Notes under the pieces: model-generated
Told to the model about the DNA's origin: nothing
The model's database searches: none
Seen by the model: the letters and a program-made list of their open reading frames with translations, nothing else
Part shown: piece after piece, positions 9,128 through 46,242 of the stretch
Position numbering within the stretch: position 1 is the stretch's first letter
Layout: each line of letters starts with the position of its first letter
Translations under genes and position numbers: made by a program
Source: Vicingaceae bacterium
Lineage (GTDB): Bacteria; Bacteroidota; Bacteroidia; Flavobacteriales_E; Vicingaceae
DNA: 54,509 bases
Assembly (NCBI GenBank): GCA_029210015.1
Contig: JARGOE010000004.1
Coordinates: 1-54,509, forward strand
Direction of reading: 5' to 3'

Positions 9128-9167
9128 ATTCATAATTTAGACCACTGAAAAAGGAAACAACGACTTT

Positions 9168-10889: not shown

Positions 10890-11645
10890 ATGAACCCAAA
10901 AGTTTCCATAATAACAGTATGTTACAATAGTGCTAAAACTATTGAAGATACTATCCAATCAGTTATTAATCAAACTTACGATAACATTGAATACATTATT
11001 GTTGATGGGCTTTCCACAGATAATACACTAAAAATAGTTAATAAATACCAAGACAAAATTGCCAAAGTAGTTTCTGAGAAAGATGCTGGTTTATACGATG
11101 CTATAAACAAAGGTATTGGATTAGCTATTGGCGATATTATTGCTAACATTAACTCTGATGATTTTTACATTGACAATAATGTAATTGCTGATGTAGTTGC
11201 CAAAATGGAAAAAGAAAAAAGTGATACACTTTACGCTGATTTGTATTATGTAGAAGCTGCTGACACTAATAAAGTAACACGTAATTGGGTTTCTGGAGCA
11301 TATAAAAAAGGTATGTTTTTTAAAGGTTGGATGCCACCCCATCCTACTTTTTTTGTAAGAAAAAGTGTTTACAATAATTACGGTAAATTTAATTTAGAGC
11401 TAAAATCTGCTGCCGATTATGAGATAATGCTTCGCTTTATCCATAAACATGAATGCAGCATAGTCTATTTGCCTCGTGTAGTTGTAAAAATGCGAGTAGG
11501 TGGTGTAAGTAATTCAAGCTTAAAAAACCGCCTTAAAGCTAACAGAGAAGATAAACGTGCATGGGAAATTAATGAATTAAAACCTAAACCTTACACCTTA
11601 ATTTTCAAGCCCCTTTCTAAGGTATTACAGTTTATGAAGAAGTAA
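10890..11645 (+). CDS. Glycosyltransferase family 2
   Basis: 251 aa GT-A fold transferase. It opens with VSIITVCYNSAKTIEDTIQSV, then YIIVDGLSTDNT near 36, the diphosphate-metal motif region NINSDDFY near 87, and an HPTFFVRKS plus ADYEIMLR acceptor region near 150-180. This is the WcaA/WbeA-like type of GT2 found in O-antigen clusters. The ATG begins immediately after the carbamoyltransferase stop. It is the last gene of the operon, and its stop touches the stop of the convergent fcl gene. Confidence 0.9.
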   Translation: MNPKVSIITVCYNSAKTIEDTIQSVINQTYDNIEYIIVDGLSTDNTLKIVNKYQDKIAKVVSEKDAGLYDAINKGIGLAIGDIIANINSDDFYIDNNVIADVVAKMEKEKSDTLYADLYYVEAADTNKVTRNWVSGAYKKGMFFKGWMPPHPTFFVRKSVYNNYGKFNLELKSAADYEIMLRFIHKHECSIVYLPRVVVKMRVGGVSNSSLKNRLKANREDKRAWEINELKPKPYTLIFKPLSKVLQFMKK

Positions 11646-22212: not shown

Positions 22213-23442
22213 TTAATTAGAAATCACAACAAAATAAATACTAAACCCAATAAAGTAAAGGATACCCAGCCAGCTAACAACCTTTAATAACAGACCTGGT
22301 TTATTTTCAGCAGGCATTGTTTTTCCGTTAATTACCAAAAAGTTTAAAATTGCAATTATTGGAGAAGAAAGAAACGCAACGGTTGTAGCAAAATCTACTA
22401 AATCTTTCATGTTGGTTAGGTAAAATGCTAAAATAATTACTGTTCCAACTAACAATAATCCTATCCAGAAAAAATAAATCTTTCTATTGTCTTTAGTGCT
22501 TCCTACAACCAAACTAGTCCCTTCAGCCAAAACTCTAGGAGAAGCATCTAAACAAGTTAATGTAGTACTTAGCATAGTTGTAAATGCTGCAATGGCTATA
22601 ATTACATAAGCCCAGCTTCCAATATTATTAGTGTAAATGGCTATTAATTGCTTAGCAAAAGCACCTCCTCCATTTTGTAACTCTAAACCAGAACCATATA
22701 TAGTCAATGAACCTAATGACACAAAACAAAGTGCTAACACTAAGGTTCCCCAATAGCCAATTTTAAAATCAAGCAAGGCAGATTTTAGTTTACTCTTTTC
22801 ATGATTATTTCTTTCTGCAGTCCATAAGGAATGCCAAACCGATATATCTAATGGCGCAGGCATCCATCCCATTAGAGCAATTATAAACAACACATGACTT
22901 TTTTCAGAAAAAGTGAACGAAACCATATATTCTTGATATTGCTCATTATTGCCTGTAAAAGCTGCTATTAATGCTATGATTGTACTAACTGAAAGTGTAA
23001 ATATGATTAGTTTAATAGTTTTATCTAAAATACTGTATTTCCCTATCAATAAAATAGAAGTACAAATTGCCAAAAGAATACTCGACATTACCCATGGCTC
23101 AATAGTAAATCCTGATATTTCTGATGCCAACCCAGCTGTAACCACAGTAACTGCAGATTGGATAATGAACATACTTAAAAAAGTTAATACAAGAAATAGA
23201 TATAATGCCCAATTGCCTATAGATTTATAACCATACAATAAGCTTTTACCTGTACTTGCTGCGTATCTTGGACCAAATTCAAAAAAAGGATATTTTAAGA
23301 TATTAGCTAAAAGTATTGCCCAAACCAGCCCGTAACCAAAATCTGCACCTGCTCTAGTAGATTGCACTAAATGAGAAACGCCTATTGCAGCTCCTGCATA
23401 CAATAACCCTGGTCCTAAAATTTTATACCAAGGTGTTTTCAT
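22213..23442 (-). CDS. Nramp-related membrane transporter, non-canonical metal site
   Basis: 409 aa with about eleven membrane segments. The N-terminus ILGPGLLYAGAAIGVSHLVQ aligns with the Nramp TM1 start GPGFL, and the TM6 region reads GWMPAPLDISVWHSLW. In classic Nramp proteins TM1 has DPGN and TM6 has MPH(N), which bind Mn/Fe. Here these places read GVSH (21-24) and MPAP (194-197), so the metal ligands are replaced. It is an Nramp-superfamily protein by fold, but the substrate cannot be assumed to be Mn or Fe. It is the last gene of the minus-strand glycan run, 3 nt after the methyltransferase. Confidence 0.8.
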   Translation of the reverse strand: MKTPWYKILGPGLLYAGAAIGVSHLVQSTRAGADFGYGLVWAILLANILKYPFFEFGPRYAASTGKSLLYGYKSIGNWALYLFLVLTFLSMFIIQSAVTVVTAGLASEISGFTIEPWVMSSILLAICTSILLIGKYSILDKTIKLIIFTLSVSTIIALIAAFTGNNEQYQEYMVSFTFSEKSHVLFIIALMGWMPAPLDISVWHSLWTAERNNHEKSKLKSALLDFKIGYWGTLVLALCFVSLGSLTIYGSGLELQNGGGAFAKQLIAIYTNNIGSWAYVIIAIAAFTTMLSTTLTCLDASPRVLAEGTSLVVGSTKDNRKIYFFWIGLLLVGTVIILAFYLTNMKDLVDFATTVAFLSSPIIAILNFLVINGKTMPAENKPGLLLKVVSWLGILYFIGFSIYFVVISN

Positions 23443-23445
23443 TAA

Positions 23446-24354
23446 TTACTTTAAAGATTCGTTAAAATCGTTTTTTGGTAGGCTTTCGCTATAAGTGTTC
23501 ATAGCCGTAAATTTTCCTGCTTCTGAAAACGATTTTTTAGACATTTTCTTAACTAATCCTCCTAAATTATTAGCTATTGGCAAAAAGTAAACTAATGTAT
23601 CAGGATGTTTGGACGCATGGAGTTCATGCTCAATTTCATATAACTTTCTGTTTCTATATGTTGGAGGGTAAGCTTCTTTTAACTTCTTATCTGTGTCTTT
23701 TACAATAACATTTACTCCATCCCAAAAATCTTTTTCAGCCTCTTTTCTATCAGTATCATTCAAATTTAATGGGTGGCACTTGGTATAAGATTGAAACATC
23801 AATTTAAACTCTTTATTATTATACAAAAAATCTCTGTTTGCCTGTCTTACATGCCTGTAATTACTATCGTCTATAATAATAATTGCGTTATCTGCTAAAA
23901 AAGGTTTCATCAATTCTAAGCACATTAATTGGCTTCTATAATCATGTGGTCCATCAATAAAATATACTCCAACCTTTTTATCTCCAATATGATTTTTTAA
24001 ATTCTCTAAAGCATCTTCATAATCTTCATTAACAATATTCACATTGTTAAGGTTTAACTTTTTAGTTCTATCATTAACGATTGATAAATTCTTTCCTGCT
24101 TTATCAAAAAAAGCAAAATTATCTATCCCATAAACTTGCGCATTATCTAAGACCCTAGCAACTGACAATAAAGTTAATCCTTGAAAAACTCCAACCTCAA
24201 CATAACATGTGTTTTCATCTAATCTTGCCTTAGAAACATTTTGTAATAAACTAACCATTCGATGTCCTGAAAACCCAGTTAACACTTCATCATCGGTAAT
24301 TATACCTTTACTTTCAACTGCTTCTTTTATCGCCTTATGATACTTTTCAATCAT
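23446..24354 (-). CDS. SAM-dependent methyltransferase (Methyltransf_24 type)
   Basis: 302 aa. Motif I is TCYVEVGVFQGLTLLSVA near 48, then VYGIDNFAF near 74. VGVYFIDGPHDYRSQLMCLELM near 129 and NAIIIIDDSNY near 157 give the IDG-H-Y and IIDD motifs of the class I Methyltransf_24 (cephalosporin-hydroxylase/CmcI-like) group. The C-terminal 110 residues are extra to the core. It likely methylates the product of the nearby cassette. It lies directly after the SGNH gene with no gap. Confidence 0.82.
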   Translation of the reverse strand: MIEKYHKAIKEAVESKGIITDDEVLTGFSGHRMVSLLQNVSKARLDENTCYVEVGVFQGLTLLSVARVLDNAQVYGIDNFAFFDKAGKNLSIVNDRTKKLNLNNVNIVNEDYEDALENLKNHIGDKKVGVYFIDGPHDYRSQLMCLELMKPFLADNAIIIIDDSNYRHVRQANRDFLYNNKEFKLMFQSYTKCHPLNLNDTDRKEAEKDFWDGVNVIVKDTDKKLKEAYPPTYRNRKLYEIEHELHASKHPDTLVYFLPIANNLGGLVKKMSKKSFSEAGKFTAMNTYSESLPKNDFNESLK

Positions 24355-25131
24355 CTATTTATAATGTTTATCTATTAGTGTAAGTAAATTTTCAAGGATA
24401 AATCTACTTCCTTTTTTTGTTAAATGCACATTATCGCAGGTATATTGATGAATTTCTGGCTTAGATAACAAAGTTAAATCAACAACTGTCTGAGTATTTA
24501 AATTACTCAACATTTGTTTACTCTTTTCATAAATCATTACAGAATTAGCAGGCCTAGCCTTATAATTACCTACCCATTCTAAATCTACTGCATTACAACT
24601 TACCCAGATTAAATTTTCAATTTTATTAAATTCTTCAGCTATTAATTCTACCATAAATTCAGGTACAGTTGATGCTGTTTTCTCTCCATTATATTCATCT
24701 GAATACCCATTGAAATCAATCAATTTTTGATAAATCTCATCACCAAAAAAGCGAATTATTTTACTTTTTTTTGATTTAATAATTTCTATGTTTTGAGAAA
24801 TTGGTCTTGGAGCAAAATCCACTACACCAATATGAGCAATAACAAATTGATATTTTTTAGGGGAATTGTGATAATAGTCTAAAAAATCATAAACTGTAGT
24901 AGTTCTTTCTGGACACACATAAGCATCCGTTTTAAAATTCTTAACAAAGTACTTTGTATACCACGAAAAAGCATTGTACTTATGGGTTAGTTTGGTTACA
25001 TCAAAACCACGAGAATCTGTAAATACAAAAACTGAAGGTTTAGATGCATTTTTTATTTTATAAAAAACTAACCTTAGTTTAATAACTAGAGATAATAAGA
25101 AATAGAATATTTCACTCAATTTCCTTTTCAC
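24355..25131 (-). CDS. SGNH/GDSL-like hydrolase or acyltransferase domain protein
   Basis: 258 aa. A hydrophobic N-terminal segment (about 7-24) could be a membrane anchor. An SGNH-type layout follows: block I TDSRGFD with Ser40, a block III-like GVVD (102-105), and block V DNVHLTKKG with Asp233 and His236 near the C-terminus. Such domains are esterases or O-acyltransferase partners. In a glycan operon it may add or remove an O-acetyl group. The usual GxND Asn of block III is missing, so activity is uncertain. Confidence 0.68.
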   Translation of the reverse strand: MKRKLSEIFYFLLSLVIKLRLVFYKIKNASKPSVFVFTDSRGFDVTKLTHKYNAFSWYTKYFVKNFKTDAYVCPERTTTVYDFLDYYHNSPKKYQFVIAHIGVVDFAPRPISQNIEIIKSKKSKIIRFFGDEIYQKLIDFNGYSDEYNGEKTASTVPEFMVELIAEEFNKIENLIWVSCNAVDLEWVGNYKARPANSVMIYEKSKQMLSNLNTQTVVDLTLLSKPEIHQYTCDNVHLTKKGSRFILENLLTLIDKHYK

Positions 25132-25137
25132 TTCTAG

Positions 25138-25932
25138 TTATTTGAATAGTGAATTAAAATCTACTCTATTATAAACATCTAAATTACCACCAACAGTAGC
25201 ATTAATAACCTCCCTGTCGTCCAATTCAAACATTAGTTTTGCCAAACGATAGCTTTTTAAAACATTATGAAGTTTAGGATCGTGCCATTTTTTACCCTTC
25301 CCAAAGTAATCCGGATGAAAATGGTTAACATCATCCTCAGTACTTTCTATAACATTACCATCTACTTTAGCACTATCTGGTATATTGTAACTAAAATCCA
25401 TACCTATTAAATAAACTTTAGAAAACCCTAAATAATATGCTAATTGTAAATTTACAATGGTTACTGATTGACCACAAAAAGCTTCTTCAGATAAATCTTG
25501 AGAAAATCTTGGAGTTTCATAATAAGGGCTAGTATCATTATAAAATGAATAATCTAGATTTAAGAAATAGCGATTATCTCCTTTTTTGAATTTTGATTTA
25601 AACTTAGCTGGAAAAAACATGTAATCACATTGATAATCATTAATCTCATTAATATTATCGTTTATCACATGCGGATCTTCTACTACATAGAAACTAGGCT
25701 TATAACCCATTTCTCTTGTTTTATAGTAAATAGAATTTACTGCAAAACTATACTCATTTTCTAAAAGCTTTAAATCAATTTTATTTAAAGAGGGGCCATT
25801 ACCAACTATAAAACAACGCTCTCCTTTAAATTTATCCTTCAGTTTAGCAATTTCAGATTTGCTTCGACTCATTTTCCCTGGTTGGTCGATTAAGCTATTA
25901 GGAACTAATTCTTTTATTTTTTTCTTCAACAT
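25138..25932 (-). CDS. DUF115/MptE-like protein, possible acidic-sugar transferase
   Basis: 264 aa. After a 35-residue leader comes RCFIVGNGPSLNKIDL (GNGPSL at 44-49), then an AVNSIYY strand, and a later GFSKVYLIGMDFSYN near 178. GNGPSL followed by an ID and a strand is shared by DUF115/Maf proteins and Cst-type (GT42) sialyltransferases. DUF115-type Maf proteins move pseudaminic or legionaminic acid onto flagellin. With a CMP-sugar-synthetase-like gene in the same operon, a transferase for that CMP-sugar is a reasonable guess, but not shown. Confidence 0.68.
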   Translation of the reverse strand: MLKKKIKELVPNSLIDQPGKMSRSKSEIAKLKDKFKGERCFIVGNGPSLNKIDLKLLENEYSFAVNSIYYKTREMGYKPSFYVVEDPHVINDNINEINDYQCDYMFFPAKFKSKFKKGDNRYFLNLDYSFYNDTSPYYETPRFSQDLSEEAFCGQSVTIVNLQLAYYLGFSKVYLIGMDFSYNIPDSAKVDGNVIESTEDDVNHFHPDYFGKGKKWHDPKLHNVLKSYRLAKLMFELDDREVINATVGGNLDVYNRVDFNSLFK

Positions 25933-25935
25933 ATC

Positions 25936-26859
25936 TTATCCCTGTGTTTTATAATACATTAAATGACCAATAGCACTCATACCCATAGCTAAAACAGCTT
26001 CTTTAGCATTTCCACCAATATGAGGAGTACATATAAGATTAGGTAATTTTAATAACTCTAAATTGGTAGGTGGTTCTTCTTCATAAACATCTAATGCCGC
26101 AGCTCTAATGTTTCCAGTAGATAAAGCATCATATAAATCATTCTCTTCAACTATTCCTCCTCTTGCTGTATTTAGTATAATAGCATTTGGTTTCATCATA
26201 TCAAATGACTTTTTATTTAAAATATGCTTTGTATCTTCTGTTAAAGGGGTATGAACAGTTATTACATCACAATTCTTAAAAATATCCTCTTTAGAACTTT
26301 CTATTAAACCATTCTCTTTGTAATAGTCATCCTGATTAATAATATCGTTAACCAATATTTTACAGTTAAATGGTTGTAGCATTTTAACCAATTCCTTTCC
26401 AATAAAACCAACTCCAATAATACCTACTGTTTTACCAGTTAGTTGTTCTCCACCATCTTTTTGCCAGTTACCATTACTTAACAGATTTGAAGTTTGATAC
26501 AAATTACGTAATAAAGAAAGTGCATTCCCCATTACCATTTCTGCAACTGAGATTCTATTCACTCCACCAGTCCACCCTATTCTTACATCATGCTTTTTAC
26601 AAGCTTCTAAATCAATATTATTTAACCCTACACCATATTTTGCAATAATTTTTAAATTTGGTAATTGAGTTAACACCTCATCATCAATTTGATCAAGTCC
26701 AACAATAGCAGCATCAAATCCTATTAAATACTCTACCAATTCTGTTTTTGAAAATCTTAATCCATCACTATTCAACTTAGCATAAGGAAATTCAACTGCC
26801 ATTTTTGCAATTAAATCAGGATGATTAGAAAATGAAGGTGATGTTACTGCTACTCTCAT
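25936..26859 (-). CDS. D-isomer-specific 2-hydroxyacid dehydrogenase family protein
   Basis: 307 aa. The NAD-binding loop is TVGIIGVGFIGKELV near 146; catalytic regions are NTARGGIVEENDL near 230 (Arg), DVYEEEPP near 258 (Glu) and TPHIGGNAKEA near 276 (His). The layout is that of PGDH-type enzymes (SerA, PdxB, GhrB). It oxidises or reduces a 2-hydroxy/2-keto acid. In this operon it could act on a precursor or sugar acid of the cassette. It begins where the HAD gene ends (TAATG overlap). Confidence 0.9.
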   Translation of the reverse strand: MRVAVTSPSFSNHPDLIAKMAVEFPYAKLNSDGLRFSKTELVEYLIGFDAAIVGLDQIDDEVLTQLPNLKIIAKYGVGLNNIDLEACKKHDVRIGWTGGVNRISVAEMVMGNALSLLRNLYQTSNLLSNGNWQKDGGEQLTGKTVGIIGVGFIGKELVKMLQPFNCKILVNDIINQDDYYKENGLIESSKEDIFKNCDVITVHTPLTEDTKHILNKKSFDMMKPNAIILNTARGGIVEENDLYDALSTGNIRAAALDVYEEEPPTNLELLKLPNLICTPHIGGNAKEAVLAMGMSAIGHLMYYKTQG

Positions 26860-27506
26860 TAATTGATTTTTTTTATTACCGATTCCAAACTTAGTAAATC
26901 CTTAATTTTTATAACGCTTTTATTTGCAAAAAGTGCTTCATTTTCCTCATGTTCACGTAATACAAAATGTAAATTATGATGTATTGCCGCATCATAATCA
27001 GTTGTTGCATCTCCAATAAAAACAATCTCTGTGTTACTTAATCCGATTTCAGGTATTAATTGACTACACCATTTAATTTTATTTGTAGGAGAACCACAAA
27101 TCTGTTTAAACAAACTAGTTATTTCTAATTGATCACAAATCTGTTCAATCTCATTTTGGGGTGTCCCAGTAATAATGTATTGCTGATATTCATCACCTAA
27201 TTTTTGAATAGTGTTTAAAGCTCCTTTTACATAAGGACTTTCAACTACTTTTTTTAATACTAAATCAGAAAATTTTTGAGCCCACAACTGAAGTTCGTTA
27301 TCTGTAATATTAATGCCTAAATGTGTTTTATGCCAATATCTAATTTTTTCGAAACGAGAGATTCCGCCATGTTCAATATGATATTGTTCTACTTGCTGAG
27401 CTATTTCTTCTCCAAACTCGATATATAAATCGTAAAACGCTTTTGATTTGATCTCTGTAGATTCTTTAATTACTCCATCAAAATCGTAAAATATAGCTTT
27501 TATCAT
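26859..27506 (-). CDS. HAD-superfamily phosphatase
   Basis: 215 aa. Motif I FYDFDGV gives Asp8 and Asp10, motif II IITGTPQ near 115, and motifs III/IV FIGDATTDYDAA near 169. The helical cap sits between I and II (subclass I, Gph-like). It likely removes phosphate from a small phosphorylated sugar or sugar acid. In a ulosonic-acid route it would take the place of the KdsC/NeuC-phosphatase step. It overlaps the cyclase-family gene by 4 nt. Confidence 0.87.
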   Translation of the reverse strand: MIKAIFYDFDGVIKESTEIKSKAFYDLYIEFGEEIAQQVEQYHIEHGGISRFEKIRYWHKTHLGINITDNELQLWAQKFSDLVLKKVVESPYVKGALNTIQKLGDEYQQYIITGTPQNEIEQICDQLEITSLFKQICGSPTNKIKWCSQLIPEIGLSNTEIVFIGDATTDYDAAIHHNLHFVLREHEENEALFANKSVIKIKDLLSLESVIKKIN

Positions 27507-28171
27507 GCTGTTTTTGCAATTATAGTTACCGGTGCACCATCAGCCTTATCAAGCATAAGTGGAGCAACAATTACTTCTTTAAATTTTGTCTGCGATGTTA
27601 CTTGAGTTAAGTCTACCTCCTCAATTATTAAAATATCGTTCTCAATTAAATATTGTTTATGAGCTTCTCTTCCAGTTTCTCTTTGCTGGTATGAGTTCAT
27701 TGAAATTAAATCAAATGCAATAGCTTTTAGATTAGGAAAGTGTTGTTTTAAATAGCTTGCTGTTTCAGGATGAAATCCAAAACCAAACTCCCAATATTCA
27801 TCTGTGTATCGTTTATTGCAGAAACCTGTTTTTATGAACAGTAATTCTACATTAGAGTTTATATGCTCTATTTCAAGGTCTTGATTTTTGATTAAGTAAT
27901 CTGTTACATTTTTTGCTTCAACATCAATGATACCAACCTGATGATAAATAAAATCAGTTGCTGAATAATCTGTTGATTTTTTTCCAGCAGAAGAAAAATG
28001 GTAAGGAAAATCTAAGTGGGTACCATAATGTGTTGGCATTTCAAATACTGTATTATTACTTGTATCCCCACAACACATATCTCTTACTTGAGAAATTTTA
28101 AATCGATCTCCATTTCCGTAGCCGAAGGCTTTATCATTTAATGGGTAAGATAAAAAAAGTGTGTTACTCAT
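27503..28171 (-). CDS. Cyclase-family (kynurenine formamidase-like) metal hydrolase
   Basis: 222 aa. The complete metal motif HxGTHxDxPxHF is seen as THYGTHLDFPYHF (His48, Gly50, Thr51, His52, Asp54, Pro56, His58). FIKTGFCNKRY near 114 and FGFHPETASYL near 130 follow the family pattern. Members hydrolyse amide or ester/lactone bonds. No tryptophan-degradation gene is nearby, so a kynurenine role is unlikely. A role in lactone or amide chemistry of the sugar acid is an inference from context. It overlaps both neighbours. Confidence 0.87.
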   Translation of the reverse strand: MSNTLFLSYPLNDKAFGYGNGDRFKISQVRDMCCGDTSNNTVFEMPTHYGTHLDFPYHFSSAGKKSTDYSATDFIYHQVGIIDVEAKNVTDYLIKNQDLEIEHINSNVELLFIKTGFCNKRYTDEYWEFGFGFHPETASYLKQHFPNLKAIAFDLISMNSYQQRETGREAHKQYLIENDILIIEEVDLTQVTSQTKFKEVIVAPLMLDKADGAPVTIIAKTA

Positions 28172-29048
28172 TGTTATTTACAATTTCGTTGGCTTCTTGG
28201 ATACAAGCTAATAAACCCTGCCCCATTTCTACATAAGGATTAGGTGTTAATTTTTGACTAGTTTTTGCAGTAAAACTATATGGAGTGTACTTGTAATGAT
28301 TTTTATATCCATCTGCCGAGAGATTAATAGTTAAAGTATCTCCTAATATTTCATTAATCATTTTGAATAACTCTCCTCGCTTAATTCGTTCTACACCGGT
28401 TAACACTAAATGCTTGTTTTTATGTTCTTCATTTTCTATAACATCAGCTGAAAGTTTAGCTGCATCAACTGCATGAATGTACTCTCTTACTTCTTCACCA
28501 TCTCCAGCATGATTAATCTCGCCAGATTTTATTGCATTTTTAACCAAATTAAAGATATAGTTATTCTCAAAATCTCTCTCACTATACAATGAGCCATAAC
28601 GCAAAATAGTATAATCCAAATTGTATTTCTCTTTGTATTCCTCTACAATTTTTTCAGAAGATAGTTTAGATAACCCATAAAAAGAGCCTTTACGACTCAT
28701 TGCATAAGCACTACTAGCGTAAACAAAATGTTTTACCTCATGCTTTACACATAAATCTATAATATTTAAATTTCCCATCACATTCAGCTGAAAAGCCGAA
28801 ACTGGATTTTCAACAGCTTTCTCTAAACTAGCAAAACCAGCTAAATTATAAACTACATCAAACTTATGTTCAGCAAAAAGTTGTCTTAAACTTGCAACAT
28901 CTAAAATATCTGTTTTAACAAATTTATCTGTAGGTATATGATCCGATTCATTAATATCTAATGCCAACACATCATATCCACGCTCTAGTAATTCAGTAAC
29001 TAAATAGCTACCTAAAAAACCTGTCCCACCAAAAACTGCAATTTTCAT
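28164..29048 (-). CDS. NAD-dependent epimerase/dehydratase (extended SDR)
   Basis: 294 aa. The NAD motif GGTGFLG sits at 7-13, followed by a polar LALDINES. The active site shows YASSAYAMS and YGLSKLSSE (Tyr-x3-Lys), as in UDP-sugar SDR enzymes. REYIHAVDAAKL near 190 is the family's HVDD-like segment. It probably epimerises, dehydrates or reduces a nucleotide sugar or sugar acid. It overlaps the downstream cyclase-family gene by 8 nt and lies 6 nt after the aldolase. Confidence 0.9.
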   Translation of the reverse strand: MKIAVFGGTGFLGSYLVTELLERGYDVLALDINESDHIPTDKFVKTDILDVASLRQLFAEHKFDVVYNLAGFASLEKAVENPVSAFQLNVMGNLNIIDLCVKHEVKHFVYASSAYAMSRKGSFYGLSKLSSEKIVEEYKEKYNLDYTILRYGSLYSERDFENNYIFNLVKNAIKSGEINHAGDGEEVREYIHAVDAAKLSADVIENEEHKNKHLVLTGVERIKRGELFKMINEILGDTLTINLSADGYKNHYKYTPYSFTAKTSQKLTPNPYVEMGQGLLACIQEANEIVNNNE

Positions 29049-29054
29049 ATTTGT

Positions 29055-29810
29055 CTATTTTTTAAGTAATGCCATTTGCTCTCTTGCTTTATCTCCTAAA
29101 AAGAAAAAATCTAAAGAAAAAGCTAAGAAAGTATATCCTAAATCTATTTTTGCTTGTGTAAAACTATAATCAGATTGTATTACATGCGCACCTTTAGGTT
29201 TATTTAAAGCATCACAAATTTTGTCATATTTTGCTATAGCTTCTTTTACTTCTGGCAAATCATATTGTCCAGGTTTATTCATAGAAGCTGATAAGTCATA
29301 TGGACCAATTAATGTCGAATCTATTTCTTCAACAGAAAGTATTTCTTCTAAATTAGTAATTGCATCAATATGTTCTATTTGAGCAATTACAACAATATCA
29401 TTCTTTAAGGTTTCTTGGTATTTATCAAACCCAAGTCCATAATCTTGAGCTCTTGATAATCCAACTCCTCTTTTTCCTAATGGAGGATAATAAACATGGT
29501 TTACTAGTTCTTGTGCCTCTTGTTTAGATTTAATCATTGGTACAATAATTCCATCAGCTCCTGCATCTAAAACACGTTTAATAATTACTTCATCATTTCC
29601 GTATACTCTTACAAATGCTTTTATTCCTTTGCCTTGGATAAAGCCTATTAAATTCTGAACACTTTCTATATTTACAGCTGAATGCTCAATATCAATAGTC
29701 AACCAATCGAAACCTGCGGTTGCCATAATTTCAATTACAGCTTGATTAGGGATTGTTACCCAACTACCTAAGGTTAATTGCTTATTTCTTATTTTTTGTT
29801 TTAAATTCAT
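29055..29810 (-). CDS. HpcH/HpaI-type class II aldolase
   Basis: 251 aa. It matches HpaI-type 4-hydroxy-2-oxo-acid aldolases: DIEH with His43, FVRV with Arg68 (pyruvate-binding Arg), QIEH with Glu146 and GPYDLSAS with Asp172 (metal ligands), and the PPLGKRGVG loop near 109. These enzymes join or split pyruvate and an aldehyde. No catabolic hydroxyphenylacetate genes are nearby. It begins at the stop of a CMP-sugar-synthetase-like gene, which makes a biosynthetic aldol step to a 2-keto-3-deoxy acid plausible. Confidence 0.9.
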   Translation of the reverse strand: MNLKQKIRNKQLTLGSWVTIPNQAVIEIMATAGFDWLTIDIEHSAVNIESVQNLIGFIQGKGIKAFVRVYGNDEVIIKRVLDAGADGIIVPMIKSKQEAQELVNHVYYPPLGKRGVGLSRAQDYGLGFDKYQETLKNDIVVIAQIEHIDAITNLEEILSVEEIDSTLIGPYDLSASMNKPGQYDLPEVKEAIAKYDKICDALNKPKGAHVIQSDYSFTQAKIDLGYTFLAFSLDFFFLGDKAREQMALLKK

Positions 29811-30472
29811 TACTTCACTAAGTTAAGTTTTTGAATAGTCTCTGCTAAAATAAAATCTTGCGGCTCATCAATATCTATTGCTTCAATTTTATCGATTTCA
29901 AACATTGTTGGGTTTACCCCTATTCTCTTATTCCCTGCATTAACAAACGATTCTTTTGTAAAGATAAAGATATTAGAATTCTCTTCAAAAAGAGGTGGTA
30001 AATCTTGTGTCCTGATTAATTCGTCAGGGTTATGGTTAACAGGCTTACCATCTTTCCAATACAAACGTGTTTGTAGTTTAGTAACCGAAAACAGTGAGTC
30101 TGAAGTTGAGCTATTAAATTGCTCAATTGATTGAGATAGTGTATCAGTTTTTAATAAAGGATTTGTGCTATGAGTTTGAAGATAAATATCACCATCAGAA
30201 TTATCTAAATCATTTGCAATAACATCATTCATAGAAACAAAGTCTCCACAAATTTCTTGTGGTCTTTGGTGTATTTTTACTTTAGAAAAAACCGAAGCTG
30301 ATTCTGCTATTTTATCACTATCAGTATTGATAATCACCTCATCAATTAATTTACAATTTTGCAATGATTGTAGCACATGATGAAACAATGGTTTACCATT
30401 AAAATCTTTTAAGTTTTTATTTGGCACTCTTTCAGAGTTACCTTTCATTGGCAATAACGCTATTATTTTCAT
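29810..30472 (-). CDS. Acylneuraminate cytidylyltransferase-like (CMP-sugar synthetase)
   Basis: 220 aa GT-A-like nucleotidyltransferase of the NeuA/LegF type. The start ALLPMKGNSERVPNKNLKDF carries the CTP-binding loop (K-G-S-R-P-K pattern), then TDSDKI near 51, HSTNPLL near 102 in the place of the usual QPTSPL, and a C-terminal AIDIDEPQDF with metal-binding Asp. Enzymes of this type activate nonulosonic or ulosonic acids as CMP-sugars. It is 4 nt overlapped with the flippase gene upstream and 1 nt with the aldolase downstream. Confidence 0.88.
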   Translation of the reverse strand: MKIIALLPMKGNSERVPNKNLKDFNGKPLFHHVLQSLQNCKLIDEVIINTDSDKIAESASVFSKVKIHQRPQEICGDFVSMNDVIANDLDNSDGDIYLQTHSTNPLLKTDTLSQSIEQFNSSTSDSLFSVTKLQTRLYWKDGKPVNHNPDELIRTQDLPPLFEENSNIFIFTKESFVNAGNKRIGVNPTMFEIDKIEAIDIDEPQDFILAETIQKLNLVK

Positions 30473-31962
30473 GCTTTTTTGAAAATTTTATTCCATAACT
30501 TATCTATCAAATCATTCATTTCTTTAGAAGATTTAAATAAGTAATTCCCTCCAATAAAAATAAAGGTAATGATTAAACTATTAATCGCTATTTCTATAAA
30601 ATTATTAGACGCAATTGCTGGCTTTATATAAAATACCCCCATTACAATTAAAGCGGCAAAAGCAATTGGAAAATGTTTTAAAGACAATAAATTCATTTTT
30701 AATTTAACTACAACCAAGATGAATTTAATCAATGAATATATAAATATTGTAATACTGGTTGCTATAGCTGCTCCAACTATTCCATACTCACTTATTAAAA
30801 AGTAGTTTGTTATAAAAGTTAATGTAATTAATATTGGAATCAAAAAACCATTCCATTTAAAATGTTTAGTAGCATTAATTATCAAATCTGTTGTACCAAA
30901 AATAACATCTAAAACTTTCGCAATTCCAACAAAAAAGACAGCCCATTTACCAGCCTGATAAATATCTCCATTAGGAATTATCAAAAATAATTCATCAATG
31001 TTATACCAAATAATTAGAAACAAAAACAATCCAATTATTGCCATATTAATTCCAGTTTGTTGATACATATCATTCAATTCGTCTTGTTTATTTTCTGATA
31101 CATTTTTTGACATTATAGGAAAAGCTAATTGATGAACAATTCTTTTAGGCAATTCAATTACTGTAGCAATGAAAAAAGCAATTGTATAAATACCTAGTTG
31201 CCTAAAATCATCTGTTATTCCACTTATCATTACAGAATCTATTTTTCCAACCATAACTACTCCACTAACACCAATAATTAAGTATAAAGCATACTGATAA
31301 ATTTCTTTTTTCTGAGATGGTGTTGCTATCATTTTAGGTTTGGAAAACTTAAATGAATACTTGGCCTTAAAAAATATAAAAAGAATGAGAATCTCAATAA
31401 AATGAGCTATAACAAACCAAAATATTAAATTATAAAAACTAAGAATATTAAAATGATAACAGATTAAGAGTCCAATAAAAAATAATCTTCTATAAATATT
31501 TTTAAAAAAAGAAGTGAAGACAGTTAATGATTTTGTGGCTAAAATTGCCTCCAACAAATATTGATAGATGTAACAAAAAATAATTGGAATTATATATATT
31601 AAATACTCTTTGTTCTTAATTGCATCATCTCCTAATAATTGAATTATATTATCTCTGAATACAACAAAACATATACTCACAAGTATTAATACACTTAAGG
31701 GCACTATAAAAAGTAAACTAATAAAACTGTTTTGTTCTTTTCCTTCTTTAAAAACATGTATAAATCTAGCAGGCAAGCCACTTGTCCCAAACATAATAAA
31801 TGGAAAAAGTAATATAGCAACATCAAAAAGGTAACTAATTATACCTATTTCTAACTCATCTAGAATTGCTGTTTGAAGCCATAAAATATTTATAACTCCT
31901 AAAGCTACCCCTAAATAATTAATGATAGAGGTTGATATAGTTTTTCGGATAACTATCCCCAT
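30469..31962 (-). CDS. Oligosaccharide flippase (Wzx/MATE-like)
   Basis: 497 aa with about 12-14 membrane segments along the full length and short polar loops, as in MOP-superfamily polysaccharide flippases. The N-terminus KTISTSIINYLGVALGVINILW is typical for Wzx. It would move a lipid-linked repeat unit across the inner membrane. It is encoded between a GT2 and the CMP-sugar cassette, overlapping the GT2 end by 10 nt and the cytidylyltransferase start by 4 nt. Confidence 0.85.
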   Translation of the reverse strand: MGIVIRKTISTSIINYLGVALGVINILWLQTAILDELEIGIISYLFDVAILLFPFIMFGTSGLPARFIHVFKEGKEQNSFISLLFIVPLSVLILVSICFVVFRDNIIQLLGDDAIKNKEYLIYIIPIIFCYIYQYLLEAILATKSLTVFTSFFKNIYRRLFFIGLLICYHFNILSFYNLIFWFVIAHFIEILILFIFFKAKYSFKFSKPKMIATPSQKKEIYQYALYLIIGVSGVVMVGKIDSVMISGITDDFRQLGIYTIAFFIATVIELPKRIVHQLAFPIMSKNVSENKQDELNDMYQQTGINMAIIGLFLFLIIWYNIDELFLIIPNGDIYQAGKWAVFFVGIAKVLDVIFGTTDLIINATKHFKWNGFLIPILITLTFITNYFLISEYGIVGAAIATSITIFIYSLIKFILVVVKLKMNLLSLKHFPIAFAALIVMGVFYIKPAIASNNFIEIAINSLIITFIFIGGNYLFKSSKEMNDLIDKLWNKIFKKA

Positions 31963-32846
31963 AAGCCTTTACTTATCCACCATCTAAATTTAACTAGCAT
32001 AACTCCTTTTGATGGCTGGCCTTTAAATAAATAAATACCGAACAACCCAAAAGTTCCTCCCCATTTATAGATTTCGGCTAATGAACGTTTAAAATATTCG
32101 CCTGTTTTTTTTGTTCTTAATTTTTCGGATACTCCTATTCCATTTGCTGCCTTTTTAACAAACTCTTCGGTCAACCTTTCTTTAGGTATTACATGATGAA
32201 CCAACATTTTTGGAAAGTAATATATTGGAGCATTTAAGTTTTTAACTCTAAAAAAAAAGTCTTTTTCCTCCCCCCCAAGCATTGACTTGCCTATCCGACC
32301 TAACTCTGTATTAAAGCCTCCTATTTCATCAAATACAGCTTTAGAAAACCCCATATTAGCTCCAATAGGATATTTGGTTCCTTGGAATTTAGTAATCTCT
32401 GTCCCCATGTCTATAATAGACATCAAAGAAGCTAAAAACTTAGACATCCACTTAGGCAGTTCACATTCTAAAAAAGGCAAAATCTTTCCACCAAAACCAA
32501 TATATTGTTCAGTTGTACTACTTAAATATTGAGTTAATTCTTTAACATAGTTTTCATCCAAAAAAGCGTCATCATCAATAAAAACAATGTATTTACCTTT
32601 TGCTTCAGCTACTCCTCTATTTCTAGCAAAAGATAAACCTTGCTGAGTTTCTAAAAAATACCTATAATTAATATGATTATTGTTCTCACCAAATTCGCTA
32701 CAAATCTTCTCTGTACTATCTGTTGATTTGTTGTTTACTAAAATCAACTCAAAAGCTTCTTTAGCAGATTTCTGTTTAGCTGCACTTTCAAGCATTTTAG
32801 GTAAATACTTATCTCTGTTATATGTGCAAACAATTATTGATATCAT
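31953..32846 (-). CDS. Glycosyltransferase family 2
   Basis: 297 aa GT-A transferase. ISIIVCTYNRDKYLPKMLESA at the start, ILVNNKSTDSTE near 36, ARNRGVAEAKGKYIVFIDDDAFLD with the DDD metal motif near 90, and GGEEKDFFFRV near 190 as the catalytic ED region. The C-terminal 80 residues are basic and may touch the membrane. It is the GT nearest the flippase in this operon. Confidence 0.9.
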   Translation of the reverse strand: MISIIVCTYNRDKYLPKMLESAAKQKSAKEAFELILVNNKSTDSTEKICSEFGENNNHINYRYFLETQQGLSFARNRGVAEAKGKYIVFIDDDAFLDENYVKELTQYLSSTTEQYIGFGGKILPFLECELPKWMSKFLASLMSIIDMGTEITKFQGTKYPIGANMGFSKAVFDEIGGFNTELGRIGKSMLGGEEKDFFFRVKNLNAPIYYFPKMLVHHVIPKERLTEEFVKKAANGIGVSEKLRTKKTGEYFKRSLAEIYKWGGTFGLFGIYLFKGQPSKGVMLVKFRWWISKGLWG

Positions 32847-32849
32847 CGA

Positions 32850-35522
32850 CTATGCTTCATCTAGAGTAGATTCTTCTTGGTTTTTTATAGTAATATATAT
32901 ACCATAACCCATAGCAAGAATAATTATTGCAAAGGATATTATTGAAATAGTATCTCCAATTCCTAACATAGTAGGTTCAAACTTAAATTCTACTTTATGT
33001 TCTCCTGCAGGTATAGGTAAAGATCTTAACACATAATTTGCTCTTAAATGAGATACTTTCTTTCCATCAATATAAGCTACCCAATCATCTTTATAATGCA
33101 TTTCAGAAAACACAGCTAACTGATCAGCTGTTGAGTTTGAAGTATACTGCATATGATTAGGCTTATAATCTGTCATTATGATAGTACCTGTTCCATCAAA
33201 TGATTTTTTTGTTAAAACACTTTCAAAATCTTTACTTACCACAGCTGTTTGTTTTGGATCAACTTTACCTAAAGTAGTTATTTCTTCATCAGCATTATTC
33301 ACTACACTAACATCTTTAACAAACCATGCATTCCCATAAGCATATGGGTTTTCCATTACCAATTTACCCTGATATAAATAATACTTATTGTTAAGCATGT
33401 TTAAGACTTTGGTCTGCTCAGGAGTTTGAAGCATATTTACTTCCTTAGAAATATAAAAATCAATCAAATCTTGGTACCGCGCCATTTTTGCAGCATGGTA
33501 ACCTCCAGTAGATTTATGAAAATAAGCAACTGAAGCACTATTAAAAGGATTATCTAAATTCATAACTCGGTAGTTAGAATTTAAATTTAATGTAGCAAAA
33601 CGCATGCTCTCTTCTATTTTCTGACCATTCTTTCTATCTTCTTTTTTAGCTTCAGAAATTCTTTGCTGAGCTTCTTGTTCTATTTGTGGTTTTTTAGCAG
33701 CTTCTTTATTATAAATATCGTAATCCCCTTGGCTTGCATTTGGAGTATTTTCATACCCAGTTTTTTTCTCCCAAGAAAGATAGTCTCTTTTATTCTTTGG
33801 ATTTTTTTCGTTGTTTAAATACCTTTTATCAACCATCCATACATCAATTAATACAGCAGCAGAAAGTCCAATAATTGCAAATTTAAACTTTATTTTGGCA
33901 GTAATCCATAAATACAAAATGACCAGTGCTAATAATATAAACATTAATGATCTGTAAGCATCAGAGCTAAATGCATCCATTCTAAAGCTAGTTATAGAAT
34001 CTTCTGCATCTGCAGGATTAAAACCTTGAGGTGCCTGGTTATATGTTTGATAAAGTTGATTTAATGTTTGATCTTCAATATCACTAGTAAAATCTAATAG
34101 ACTTGGCATTAAAGCTAATATTAAAACAAAAGCTGCAACTGAACCTCCACCAATCATTATCTTTTTAATATTTTGCTTTGCCCATTCTAAGTTTTTAAAT
34201 ACATGGTTAACAAATAAAACAGCCATTAATGGCAGCAATAAATTTAATACTATAAGGATAGACGCTACAGCTCTAAATTTACTATAAAGAGGTACGTTAT
34301 CAATAAAGAAATTAGTTAACCACATATCCTCAACTGAACCACCTAAGTTTTTACCCCATGCTAACAATAAAGCTAAAACACTTACCCCAACAAAAGCCCA
34401 CTTTAAAGTAGATTTGACAAAAATCAGATACATTATTGCTAATAATATGATAATAGCTCCTATATAATTTGCTCCAGAAGTAAATGGTTGATCTCCCCAA
34501 TATCCACCAAAAAGTTTACCTCCCGATTTTTGATATTGATCTACAGAATAATTGTAAAGCGCTGGATTTTTTTCACGTAATAAATCAAAGTAATCACCTG
34601 TTAAGTTTCTACTATCTCCCTTTGCATTTGGTATAAGAAGATTTAAAGTTTCTTCTTTGCCATAACACCATTGTACGATATAATCTCTATCCAACCCCGA
34701 TGATAAATTAGCTTTTTTACTACTCCCATCTGGATTAATAGTAAGTTCAGGCGACCCCCTCATGGTATCCTTTCCATAAGAATAGGTGTAATAATTAGCT
34801 GTAAAATTTGCTAAGAGCGCAAAAGTACAAGCAAGAACAATCAACCCCGTTCTAATAAAAAATGATTTTAATTCTTTTATCTTAATGTATCTTACCAACT
34901 CAGAAATACCAATAGCTAATAATATAAAAGCTAAATAATAAGTCATTTGTATATGTCCTGCCTTAAGTTCTAAAGCCATAAAAAAGGCCAATAGAGCTGT
35001 TGGCAACAATAACTTCTTGTTCTTATACATCATTATAAAAGCACCTAATACAGCAGGCAAATAAGCTAAAGCACGCATTTTAGTATTATGCCCAGCCTCT
35101 ATAATCAGTAGGTGATAAGACACAAAAGCATAAGCTACGGCACCTAAAATAGCGATATATGTTTCTACTTTTAATGATTTAGAAAGTATGAAAAAAGAAA
35201 GCATTGCTATAAACATAACATCTACAGGGAAAGTGAGCCCTAAAGAAAATAATTTATCAATCCATGTAAACCCGTTTAAATATAAAACATTGACAATGTA
35301 GCCAGGCATTCCTCCAAAAATAGAGTTTGTCCACATGGCTTCTTCTCCATAAAATGTTCTAAAATCTATTAACTCTTTAGCTACAGCTCTCCATGTAGAA
35401 GTATCCCCTTGCATTAAAAAATACCCTTGCATTGCAGGAAAAAAATAGATTGCTCCTAATGCAATAAACACTATAAATATGACTAAATATGTTAAATTCT
35501 TTTTGAAAAAATTGACTATCAT
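32850..35522 (-). CDS. YfhO family membrane protein
   Basis: 890 aa. Around 12 membrane segments fill residues 10-560, with acidic loop residues (QGDTSTWRAV near 38) and a repeated aromatic pattern as in YfhO/GT-C-like proteins. The C-terminal region (about 600-850) is a soluble domain containing a segment near 830 that reads HYKDDWVAYIDGKKVSHLRANY, followed by a last membrane helix. YfhO is linked to glycosylation of lipoteichoic acid in Bacillus; in Bacteroidota its role is not known. It lies in the glycan operon. Confidence 0.88.
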   Translation of the reverse strand: MIVNFFKKNLTYLVIFIVFIALGAIYFFPAMQGYFLMQGDTSTWRAVAKELIDFRTFYGEEAMWTNSIFGGMPGYIVNVLYLNGFTWIDKLFSLGLTFPVDVMFIAMLSFFILSKSLKVETYIAILGAVAYAFVSYHLLIIEAGHNTKMRALAYLPAVLGAFIMMYKNKKLLLPTALLAFFMALELKAGHIQMTYYLAFILLAIGISELVRYIKIKELKSFFIRTGLIVLACTFALLANFTANYYTYSYGKDTMRGSPELTINPDGSSKKANLSSGLDRDYIVQWCYGKEETLNLLIPNAKGDSRNLTGDYFDLLREKNPALYNYSVDQYQKSGGKLFGGYWGDQPFTSGANYIGAIIILLAIMYLIFVKSTLKWAFVGVSVLALLLAWGKNLGGSVEDMWLTNFFIDNVPLYSKFRAVASILIVLNLLLPLMAVLFVNHVFKNLEWAKQNIKKIMIGGGSVAAFVLILALMPSLLDFTSDIEDQTLNQLYQTYNQAPQGFNPADAEDSITSFRMDAFSSDAYRSLMFILLALVILYLWITAKIKFKFAIIGLSAAVLIDVWMVDKRYLNNEKNPKNKRDYLSWEKKTGYENTPNASQGDYDIYNKEAAKKPQIEQEAQQRISEAKKEDRKNGQKIEESMRFATLNLNSNYRVMNLDNPFNSASVAYFHKSTGGYHAAKMARYQDLIDFYISKEVNMLQTPEQTKVLNMLNNKYYLYQGKLVMENPYAYGNAWFVKDVSVVNNADEEITTLGKVDPKQTAVVSKDFESVLTKKSFDGTGTIIMTDYKPNHMQYTSNSTADQLAVFSEMHYKDDWVAYIDGKKVSHLRANYVLRSLPIPAGEHKVEFKFEPTMLGIGDTISIISFAIIILAMGYGIYITIKNQEESTLDEA

Positions 35523-44458: not shown

Positions 44459-45205
44459 ATGTCAACAGCAATAATAATTCAAGCTCGCTTAGGTTCTACA
44501 AGGCTTCCAGAAAAAATGATTTTACCTTTTTATCAGGATAAAAACATTTTATCAATTTTATTAGAAAATTTACTTGAACATTCAAATACTCCAGTAATTC
44601 TTGCTACTACAACCAACCCTAATGACGATAAAATTGCAGATATTGCTAACGAATATAAAATAAACATCTTCAGAGGTGATGAGAACAACGTTTTAGATCG
44701 CTTCATAAAAGCTGCAGAACAATTTAATATTGATAATATAATAAGAGTTTGTGCTGACAATCCTTTTTTACAAATCAATTATGTAAATCAGCTTATATCA
44801 GAAATAGAAAATCATAATGAATTGGATTACATTTCATATACGATAGATAATAAAACACCTGCCATAAAGTCCCATATCGGCTTATTTGCCGAAGCTACTA
44901 CATCCAATACCCTCAAAAAAGTTGCTAGATTAACTGCTAACCCACTTTATCTAGAGCATGTTACAAATTTTATCTATTCCAATGAAAAGTTCAATATAAA
45001 GTTAATTCCAACTCCTAATATTTTTTTTAATAGATTAGATTTAAGATTTACACTTGATACACAGGAAGATTTTAACCTTTTAAAAGACTTATATTTATCC
45101 TATAAAAAATTTAATAATGATATTATTAAGTTGATTGAATATATTGACAACAATAAGTCTACTTTAACACAAATGAATACCCAAATAATAAAAAACAGTA
45201 AATAA
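44459..45205 (+). CDS. SpsF-like cytidylyltransferase (CMP-sugar synthetase family)
   Basis: 248 aa. TAIIIQARLGSTRLPEKMILPF at the start is the CTP-binding loop of the SpsF/KdsB/NeuA group; NVLDRFIKAAE near 82 and RVCADNPFLQ near 98 follow (D-N-P metal region). RLTANPLYLEHVTNFIY near 160 and FTLDTQEDF near 200 match SpsF. The likely role is to activate the acid made by the NeuB-like synthase next door as a CMP-sugar. First gene of a seven-gene plus-strand run; the next gene starts right after its stop. Confidence 0.88.
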   Translation: MSTAIIIQARLGSTRLPEKMILPFYQDKNILSILLENLLEHSNTPVILATTTNPNDDKIADIANEYKINIFRGDENNVLDRFIKAAEQFNIDNIIRVCADNPFLQINYVNQLISEIENHNELDYISYTIDNKTPAIKSHIGLFAEATTSNTLKKVARLTANPLYLEHVTNFIYSNEKFNIKLIPTPNIFFNRLDLRFTLDTQEDFNLLKDLYLSYKKFNNDIIKLIEYIDNNKSTLTQMNTQIIKNSK

Positions 45206-46242
45206 ATGAGTGATACTTACCTTATTGGAGAAATTGGACAGAATCATAATGGTTCAGTAGATATAGCTAAACTAATAATTGATGGGATTTCTAGACCCAT
45301 CGAAGAACATTTATTCCATTTAAATTTAAAGGGAATGGATGCAGTAAAACTGACCAAAAGAGATTTGAATGAGGAATTATCAGCTAGTCAAATGAATCAA
45401 CCCTACAATAACCCGAACTCATTTGGAAATACTTATGGTGAGCATCGTGAATTTTTGGAATTAAATGATGACCAACATTTTGAGATATACAACTATGCCA
45501 AAGCACATAAATTAGATTTTATTGAAACCTTATGCTCTATTGGGTGTTTAAGTGTTCTAAATAAATTTACCCCAGATTATCTAAAGGTGGCTAGTCGAGA
45601 TTTAACTAATCTTCCATTACTAAAAGCCTTAGCCGAAACTAAAATACCAATCATTCTTTCAACAGGAATGGCAGGTAAAAAAGAGTTAGATGAAGGTTTA
45701 AACATTATTTCAAAGGAACATAATATTATCTCCATTTTACATTGTGTTTCTCAATACCCAACTGAACCAAAAAACGTAAACTTAAATTCAATCAATTTTT
45801 TACAAAACAATTACCCTGATTATACCATAGGTTATTCAGACCACACTATAGGAATTTCGACACCGGTTGCTGCAGTAGCTATGGGGGCAAAAATTATTGA
45901 AAAACATGTTACCCTAGATAGAAGAATGAAAGGCACAGATCAAAAAGGATCTTTAGGCCCAGATGGACTAAATAGAATGGTTAGAGATATCCGATTACTT
46001 GATTTATCTATGGGAAAAGAAAGCATTTTTATTGAACCTGAAGTTAAAACTGCAAGAGAAAAACTTGAAAGAAGTATTGCATCTAAAAGGAATATATTAG
46101 AAGGTGAAACTATTGAAGAGAAAGATCTACACATGCTCTCACCTGGTAATGGATATAAATGGTCAGAGAGAAAGTCTTTGATTGGTAAAAAAGCAGCTAA
46201 AGACATCCCTAAAAACGAAATAATCTATAAAGATTTAATCCT

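Follow-up and report, generated by a model that had tools for sequence, protein, structure and literature searches.

We analyzed 54,509 nucleotides of DNA from a Vicingaceae bacterium (contig JARGOE010000004.1, positions 1 to 54,509; here called the window), which form contig C88 of an assembly of 2.43 Mb with completeness rated at 82.3%. Our subject is a nine-gene cassette in which a NeuA/PseF-like cytidylyltransferase lies beside an HpaI-type aldolase, and which appears to be a gene set for biosynthesis of a cytidine monophosphate (CMP)-activated ulosonic acid by another route. All nine open reading frames were confirmed on the minus strand at 23446 to 30472, and, as a sequence-only reading of this DNA had described, nearly all of them touch: neighbors overlap or lie no more than 6 bases apart. 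The cassette genes are listed below with their Pfam matches.

29810..30472, minus strand: NeuA/PseF-like cytidylyltransferase of a group of its own, with the motif HSTNPLL; proposed to activate an ulosonic acid (PF02348, 1.7e-30)
29055..29810, minus strand: HpaI-type class II aldolase (PF03328, 8.5e-34)
28164..29048, minus strand: extended short-chain dehydrogenase/reductase (SDR); proposed sugar or sugar-phosphate 1-dehydrogenase, alternatively a 4-epimerase (PF01370, 4e-45)
27503..28171, minus strand: PF04199 metal hydrolase (cyclase family), proposed lactonase (PF04199, 1.2e-15)
26859..27506, minus strand: HAD phosphatase (PF13419, 7e-14)
25936..26859, minus strand: D-2-hydroxyacid dehydrogenase resembling phosphoglycerate dehydrogenase (PGDH); proposed to oxidize an aldonate at C2 to a 2-keto acid (PF02826, 3e-56)
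25138..25932, minus strand: DUF115/MptE-like protein, proposed CMP-ulosonate glycosyltransferase (PF01973, 1e-24)
24355..25131, minus strand: SGNH-like protein, accessory, by eye a possible glycan acyltransferase or esterase (no family match)
23446..24354, minus strand: methyltransferase, accessory (PF13578, 7e-17)

Eight of the nine family labels given by the sequence-only reading were borne out by Pfam or NCBIfam, the Pfam families being CTP_transf_3, HpcH_HpaI, Epimerase, Cyclase (PF04199), HAD_2, 2-Hacid_dh, MptE-like/DUF115, and Methyltransf_24. The ninth was not: the protein encoded at 24355 to 25131 has no match in Pfam or NCBIfam, so its SGNH label comes from the sequence read by eye, and its cluster comprises 5 loci, the window included. 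NeuB and KdsA had been described as missing; for NeuB this is true of the cassette but not of the window, where it is part of a separate gene set at 44459 to 47516.

We compared 86 cassette loci, consisting of the window, L008 to L012 (gathered by an aldolase search, which favors the count for that enzyme), 77 loci out of 80 taken from a cytidylyltransferase scan, and 3 plasmid loci; L013, L072, and L078 were left out as duplicates of L009, L012, and L011. The scan covered the named genome collection with an alignment of six cytidylyltransferases and two peptide patterns; it confirmed 213 stretches, from which we kept the best 80. A scan of viral contigs found no relative of the cytidylyltransferase. 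A plasmid search for the enzyme gave 75 records, every one below 60% identity, and three of the top four were examined. In all, 80 of the 86 loci were collected by cytidylyltransferase similarity. As controls, 40 NeuB-anchored loci from 40 genomes were picked from 82 NeuB genomes, chiefly those ranked first; all belong to the window's class, whereas the case loci span many phyla. Because several loci are contig fragments, the locus counts are lower bounds.

At a threshold of ≥80 bits, the 2-hydroxyacid dehydrogenase, the aldolase, and the HAD phosphatase were found in 75, 64, and 57 of the 86 loci, respectively, and in 0 of the 40 controls; the gene set is thus a cassette conserved beyond chance. 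The remaining profiles matched as follows: cytidylyltransferase, 86; extended SDR, 61; DUF115, 34; PF04199 cyclase, 31; YhcH, 25; 6-phosphogluconolactonase-type protein (6PGL/Glucosamine_iso family), 19; classical SDR, 14; MBL protein, 8; and SMP-30, 2, the last with a profile built from one sequence that missed SMP-30 genes annotated in the L098 and L100 records. Among the controls only the cytidylyltransferase (5), the extended SDR (9), and the classical SDR (8) were matched, and at 40 bits these rose to 25, 24, and 9, with DUF115 in 4 and all others at 0. The order cytidylyltransferase-aldolase-SDR-lactonase-HAD-dehydrogenase occurs in many Bacteroidota loci (e.g., L015, L032, and L047); cytidylyltransferase-aldolase-dehydrogenase-SDR-cyclase-HAD is found in L062, L063, and L066 (Desulfobacteraceae, Sulfurovum), aldolase-SDR-cyclase-HAD-dehydrogenase-cytidylyltransferase in L024 and L077, and cytidylyltransferase-HAD-dehydrogenase-cyclase-aldolase-SDR in L043. 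That a single set recurs in four or more arrangements points to a functional unit. Aldolase-bearing loci carry the labels of about 10 phyla, some of which may be wrong, many of the records being metagenome bins. The cytidylyltransferases of L052 and L053 are identical over the compared region under the labels Candidatus Wolfebacteria and Flavobacteriaceae, which makes a binning error probable.

Condensing enzymes were nearly always missing from these loci. By tblastn with one query each, NeuB was found in 1 of the 86 cassette loci (L068, on the other strand) versus 40 of 40 controls, and KdsA in 1 of 86, namely L098, the source of the query, whose plasmid carries it in a gene group apart from the cassette. 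That second group of the Thalassovita plasmid (L098:1-3859) is annotated as manno-octulosonate cytidylyltransferase, kdsA, SDR, SMP-30/gluconolactonase, and MptE-like. The proposal of a dedicated CMP-ulosonate-type cassette is supported by these counts. The window cytidylyltransferase matches the PseF model at 3e-29 and 102 bits, below the cut-off of 205.7. In a quick tree with 26 control rows, 86 of the 87 case cytidylyltransferase rows formed one group (SH-aLRT, 99), lying outside the NeuB-associated group and separate from KdsB, with which the sequence-only reading had allowed that it might group; the remaining row is an additional, dissimilar cytidylyltransferase of L074, and the window's Kdn enzyme was lost to the length filter. 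In three class-level relatives (G167, G130, and G192) a KdsB-type enzyme replaces the NeuA-type one, and those of G167 and G130 exceed KdsB subfamily cut-offs. These KdsB-type genes adjoin the same kind of aldolase (L196:9837-10655, L197:10493-11272, and L119:377-1138), and in L196 and L197 the remaining cassette enzymes are present as well.

The window aldolase exceeds the PF03328 threshold (117 versus 25 bits), and its catalytic residues H43, R68, E146, and D172 do not vary across the 56 rows of the cassette aldolase alignment, in agreement with the earlier description of an intact active site directly beside the cytidylyltransferase. Here and below, residue conservation was taken from column counts on alignments of cassette sequences, because strict motif patterns undercounted (aldolase His, 32/56; dehydrogenase His, 32/68; DUF115 GNGPS, 9/21). 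The NCBIfam equivalog cut-offs were missed by the aldolase for HpaI (187.8 against 368.8 bits), GarL (152.9 against 406.75), and RhmA (137.4 against 441), and the relatives that it has in the PDB, HpcH and YfaU for example, belong to the 2-keto-acid aldolases. Matches at 1e-20 were found in 25 of 395 class-level genomes. Where the best match had at least 46% identity (15 genomes, the window's included), a CMP-ulosonate-synthetase-like gene was close by in 15 of 15, 12 of them NeuA-type and 3 KdsB-type; in the 10 genomes with lower identity, none lay inside 1.5-kb flanks (0/10). In G192 the aldolase match is only partial and lies where a contig begins. The pairing noticed in the window thus recurs in other genomes, and among the 86 loci the aldolase lies within 2 kb of the cytidylyltransferase in 61 of 64. 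A YhcH/Neu5Ac-anomerase-like protein, over the YhcH-family cut-off and under the anomerase cut-off, stands between the two in 18 of the 25 loci having one (counted by eye). YhcH is reported to supply Neu5Ac to an aldolase in its open form (PMC8141875), and by analogy the position of the YhcH-like protein would fit an aldolase whose substrate is an open-chain ulosonate. PF03328 aldolases are reported to be able to accept hydroxypyruvate (19 of 571 screened), pairing it with 2-hydroxyaldehydes to give 3,4-dihydroxy-2-oxo acids (PMC7610986).

The 2-hydroxyacid dehydrogenase is more constant than the aldolase. In the 59 loci flanked on each side by 6 kb or more, it lies within 6 kb of the cytidylyltransferase in 56 and the aldolase in 45, and it is kept in 13 of 14 well-flanked loci without an aldolase. 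Residues R233 and E262 are conserved in 70 of 70 rows, and H280 in 68, with 2 gaps. The enzyme resembles PGDH and hydroxypyruvate reductases; its profile matches include PdxB, more weakly than PGDH. PdxB is a phospho-aldonate C2 dehydrogenase and hence a precedent for phospho-aldonate oxidation in this family. The HAD protein falls far under KdsC cut-offs and keeps Asp8 and Asp10 in 53 of 54 rows, the remaining row being a gap, and the SDR keeps Y124 and K128 in 58 of 58.

Between the SDR and the HAD phosphatase lies a slot with exchangeable occupants. Among 54 loci with the aldolase, HAD phosphatase, and extended SDR, 27 carry the PF04199 cyclase, 17 carry the 6-phosphogluconolactonase-type protein, and none carries both. 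Counting recognized genes only, the cyclase is flanked by the SDR and the HAD gene in 24 of 27 loci and the 6-phosphogluconolactonase-type protein in 16 of 17, with the seventeenth having the same two neighbors in reversed order. Two such proteins were tested and exceeded the NCBIfam pgl cut-off of 124.45 bits (L022, 192.8; L197, 155.2). Both lactonase types also accompany KdsB-type enzymes, the cyclase in L196 and the 6-phosphogluconolactonase-type protein in L197. Among cultivable bacteria, Flavobacterium akiainvivens and Polaribacter glomeratus have the cassette in its form with the 6-phosphogluconolactonase-type protein. The HxGTHxDxPxH residues of the cyclase are present in 29 of 29 rows. 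Since a 6-phosphogluconolactonase-type protein fills its slot in 17 of the 54 loci, and given the metal motif, the cyclase is probably a lactonase. An N-deformylase role, suggested by its nearest solved relative, kynurenine formamidase, was dropped in view of this exchange. The 22 loci without an aldolase carry an MBL protein (8), SMP-30/gluconolactonase (2), the cyclase (1), or no recognized type (11); one tested MBL protein has partial similarity to L-ascorbate-6-phosphate lactonase, below the cut-off. We read the cyclase, 6-phosphogluconolactonase-type, MBL, and SMP-30 proteins as one functional slot that would open a sugar lactone.

The HAD phosphatase was found in 57 of the 64 loci with an aldolase and in 0 of the 22 without one, while a classical SDR stands beside the dehydrogenase in 12 of the latter. 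One tested classical SDR scored best with the glucose 1-dehydrogenase subfamily, below its cut-off and nearly level with many SDRs. From these co-occurrences two cassette versions seem to exist: a phosphorylated version with the extended SDR, 6-phosphogluconolactonase-type protein or cyclase, HAD phosphatase, dehydrogenase, aldolase, and cytidylyltransferase, and a free-sugar version with a classical SDR, lactonase, dehydrogenase, and cytidylyltransferase.

For the DUF115 protein, an 18-sequence profile had the sialyltransferase CstII as its best solved match (6.6e-5). Its AlphaFold model (mean pLDDT, 89.4) was compared with solved structures by Foldseek, and only four matches reached 0.001. 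The best, 5mu5 (Maf; E value, 5.7e-6; probability, 1.00; TM, 0.51 by query length), indicates that the modeled protein has a Maf-like fold; archaeal HPPK and human sialyltransferases were also matched (E values, 6e-4 to 5e-3; TM, 0.35 to 0.39). H204 is present in 22 of 22 rows and aligns in the region of the CstII His that we take to be catalytic. For known Maf proteins, the transferred sugar is pseudaminic or legionaminic acid. Judged by the profile match and the modeled fold, the DUF115 protein resembles a CMP-sugar transferase, which is the role that the sequence-only reading had proposed.

On this evidence we propose, with a probability of about 0.4, that the cassette is dedicated to synthesizing a CMP-activated 2-ulosonic acid and adding it to a surface glycan, the C2 ketone of the acid arising by oxidation and not by addition of phosphoenolpyruvate (PEP). 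The starting point is probably the oxidation of an ordinary sugar. The SDR would oxidize C1 of an aldose, probably phosphorylated, to an aldonolactone; the lactonase (PF04199 here, 6-phosphogluconolactonase-type elsewhere) would open it to the aldonate; and the PGDH-like dehydrogenase would oxidize C2 to a 2-keto-aldonate. A 2-keto-aldonate is a 2-ulosonic acid and could therefore feed a NeuA- or KdsB-type enzyme directly. The aldolase may reversibly cleave and rejoin the bond from C3 to C4, hydroxypyruvate being the three-carbon unit, and in this way change the stereochemistry or exchange a fragment; cleavage and re-addition there would alter the configuration at C4 and possibly C3. The HAD enzyme would strip the phosphate, the cytidylyltransferase would form the CMP-ulosonate, the DUF115 protein would transfer it, and a flippase would export the glycan. 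Such a route accounts for the SDR, lactonase, dehydrogenase, HAD, and cytidylyltransferase roles without NeuB or KdsA. Every substrate and the order of the steps, above all the aldolase step, are what we infer. More tentative is the fuller proposal of a PEP-independent oxidative route to 3-hydroxylated ulosonic acids, with the aldolase as a stereochemical editor and DUF115/Maf-like transfer, existing in phosphorylated and nonphosphorylated versions in many phyla as a third way besides NeuB and KdsA; we know of no such editor role for the HpaI-type aldolase family.

The sequence-only reading had instead made the aldolase the defining chain-building enzyme, joining pyruvate to an aldose phosphate to give a 3-deoxy-ulosonic acid that the HAD, SDR, and dehydrogenase would tailor before CMP activation. 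Characterized NeuA- and KdsB-type enzymes do use 3-deoxy-ulosonates, the aldolase has 2-keto-acid aldolases as its solved relatives, and both its closeness to the cytidylyltransferase and the YhcH-like protein between the two would suit this chemistry. We nevertheless consider it rather unlikely: loci of the same cytidylyltransferase group that lack aldolase, NeuB, and KdsA go unexplained by it and, where well flanked, keep the dehydrogenase in 13 of 14 cases, and it leaves this near-constant enzyme without a function. The same is true of the 6-phosphogluconolactonase-type protein, whose exchange with the cyclase in one slot is not predicted by pyruvate aldol chemistry. The persistence of the dehydrogenase in aldolase-less loci also speaks against an arrangement that we hold to be improbable, in which the SDR is a 4-epimerase acting on a nucleotide sugar or CMP-ulosonate, hydroxypyruvate comes from the dehydrogenase and aldolase, which link it to an aldehyde, and the lactonase does no more than hydrolyze stray sugar-acid lactones. 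The GalE-like sequence and fold of the SDR, the likeness of the dehydrogenase to PGDH and hydroxypyruvate reductases, and the reported use of hydroxypyruvate by PF03328 enzymes (PMC7610986) would all agree with this arrangement; a 6-phosphogluconolactonase-type protein suggests instead that a phospho-aldonolactone is a main intermediate. Each family is common by itself in sugar metabolism, yet a chance grouping, or a catabolic cluster that happens to include a cytidylyltransferase, is very improbable and already contradicted by the synteny counts: the same set recurs under about 10 phylum labels in at least four orders, its dehydrogenase, aldolase, and HAD enzyme are absent from the 40 controls, and a flippase and a glycosyltransferase lie in the same run.

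Several observations count against the oxidative proposal itself. Its weakest point is the role of the aldolase, an enzyme that oxidation as such does not call for. The SDR is closest by sequence and fold to GalE-type nucleotide-sugar 4-epimerases and not to aldose or uronate 1-dehydrogenases, and it has an Arg, invariant in 58 of 58 rows, that presumably contacts the nucleotide in GalE; because its relatives are 4-epimerases, C1 oxidation is read only from the neighboring lactonase. PDB matches of the PF04199 protein are kynurenine formamidase or unnamed hydrolases, not sugar lactonases; no recognized lactonase was found in 15 of 64 loci with and 11 of 22 without an aldolase, some of them short contigs; and the hypergeometric P value of 1.8e-7 for the zero overlap of cyclase and 6-phosphogluconolactonase-type proteins ignores relatedness, as the two may partly follow lineage. 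The dehydrogenase is not nearby in three well-flanked loci (L022, L064, and L074). For DUF115 the 80-bit level is attained in no more than 34 of 86 loci, in part owing to loci that stop short (the G026 gene, for example, starts just outside L009), CstII is not among the 50 Foldseek matches listed, and the TM values for sialyltransferases are low. In the tree, which is only a quick one, the control enzyme of L189, on a long branch, attaches at the base of the cassette group. Two features of the comparison favor the case counts: cassette sequences served to build the profiles, and a single class supplied all the controls.

CMP-ulosonic acids (sialic acids, Pse/Leg, and Kdo) are major surface sugars, and to our knowledge all known routes to them use a PEP-dependent synthase. 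The cassette shares with the nonulosonic acid pathways (NeuB-NeuA, PseI-PseF, LegI-LegF, and Kdn) a NeuA/PseF-like cytidylyltransferase, a HAD phosphatase, a putative DUF115/Maf- or GT42-like transferase, and a polysaccharide locus; unlike them, it has a NeuB-type PEP condensing enzyme in 1 of 86 loci and instead an aldolase, lactonase, SDR, and 2-hydroxyacid dehydrogenase. With the Kdo pathway (KdsD-KdsA-KdsC-KdsB) it has in common the logic of a CMP-activated ulosonic acid and the KdsB-type stand-in, but its single KdsA lies in the separate L098 group and its HAD protein is well below KdsC. The catabolic HpaI, GarL, and RhmA aldolases share the fold family and four catalytic residues with the cassette aldolase, which differs from them in forming a distinct group, under their equivalog cut-offs, that is tied to cytidylyltransferases. 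The order of dehydrogenase, lactonase, and aldonate C2 dehydrogenase recalls oxidative sugar-acid routes, such as glucose-6-phosphate to 6-phosphogluconate, the PdxB step of pyridoxal phosphate synthesis, and 2-ketogluconate. A search of the open-access literature, with subscription journals and preprints outside its scope, found neither such a route linked to CMP activation or glycan export nor a description of the gene set, in line with the remark in the sequence-only reading that no described pathway with this set was known to it; in PMC10433991, "hexulosonic acid" occurs in the reference list only. If the proposal is true, a widespread synthase-free cassette would be a new branch of glycan biosynthesis and would predict unrecognized acidic sugars in many bacteria. 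It would suggest functions for orphan groups (the cassette aldolase group, the PF04199 group, the PGDH-like group, and DUF115) and correct the public annotations "acylneuraminate cytidylyltransferase" and "phosphoglycerate dehydrogenase" on cassette genes.

The cassette is part of a same-strand run of 13 genes (22213 to 35522), with further minus-strand open reading frames on either side. The four additional genes, three upstream and one downstream of the cassette, are as follows.

32850..35522, minus strand: YfhO-type membrane protein, upstream (PF09586, 2.7e-9)
31953..32846, minus strand: GT2 glycosyltransferase, upstream (PF00535, 5.8e-29)
30469..31962, minus strand: Wzx-like polysaccharide flippase (Polysacc_synt), upstream (PF01943, 6e-9)
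22213..23442, minus strand: Nramp-family protein, downstream

A family-level search, which covered the same 46 genomes as the order-level search, found the aldolase in 6, the window's own counted. All 13 genes are present in identical order in G042 (71 to 98% identity), and G043 has the run at 58 to 86% identity with one extra gene and no match to the SGNH gene. In G026, of the same genus, YfhO through the dehydrogenase are kept at 61 to 90% identity, followed by other genes and, further on, a DUF115 homologue; G005 and G006 carry the six enzymes in rearranged order at 40 to 59% identity. The flippase adjoins the cytidylyltransferase in G042, G026, and G043 too. The window aldolase is 98% identical to that at L008:8695-9447, in a genome assigned to a different genus; for the remaining 12 genes of the run the identity is 71 to 95%. 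This uneven divergence perhaps reflects recombination. In G026 (L009:693-5732), the cassette is followed, by eye, by MBOAT, SGNH-like, FkbH-like HAD, and methyltransferase genes, a content hinting at a differently decorated sugar, and the DUF115 homologue (80% identity) starts at the edge of L013 (L013:20273 onwards).

The separate gene set at 44459 to 47516, on the plus strand and 14 kb from the cassette, is a Kdn-type NeuB locus that encodes a cytidylyltransferase, NeuB, a 249-amino-acid protein without a family match, and a phosphatase that exceeds the NCBIfam cut-off for KDN-9-phosphate phosphatase. This NeuB was considered as a partner of the cassette and dropped, as it has its own cytidylyltransferase; by gene content, one contig carries two different CMP-ulosonate-type gene sets. 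Toward the two ends of the window, the regions at 109 to 11645 and 49129 to 54349 hold additional glycan genes, among them several glycosyltransferases, a UDP-GlcNAc 2-epimerase, a carbamoyltransferase, an ABC transporter pair, and a GT-D-like protein.

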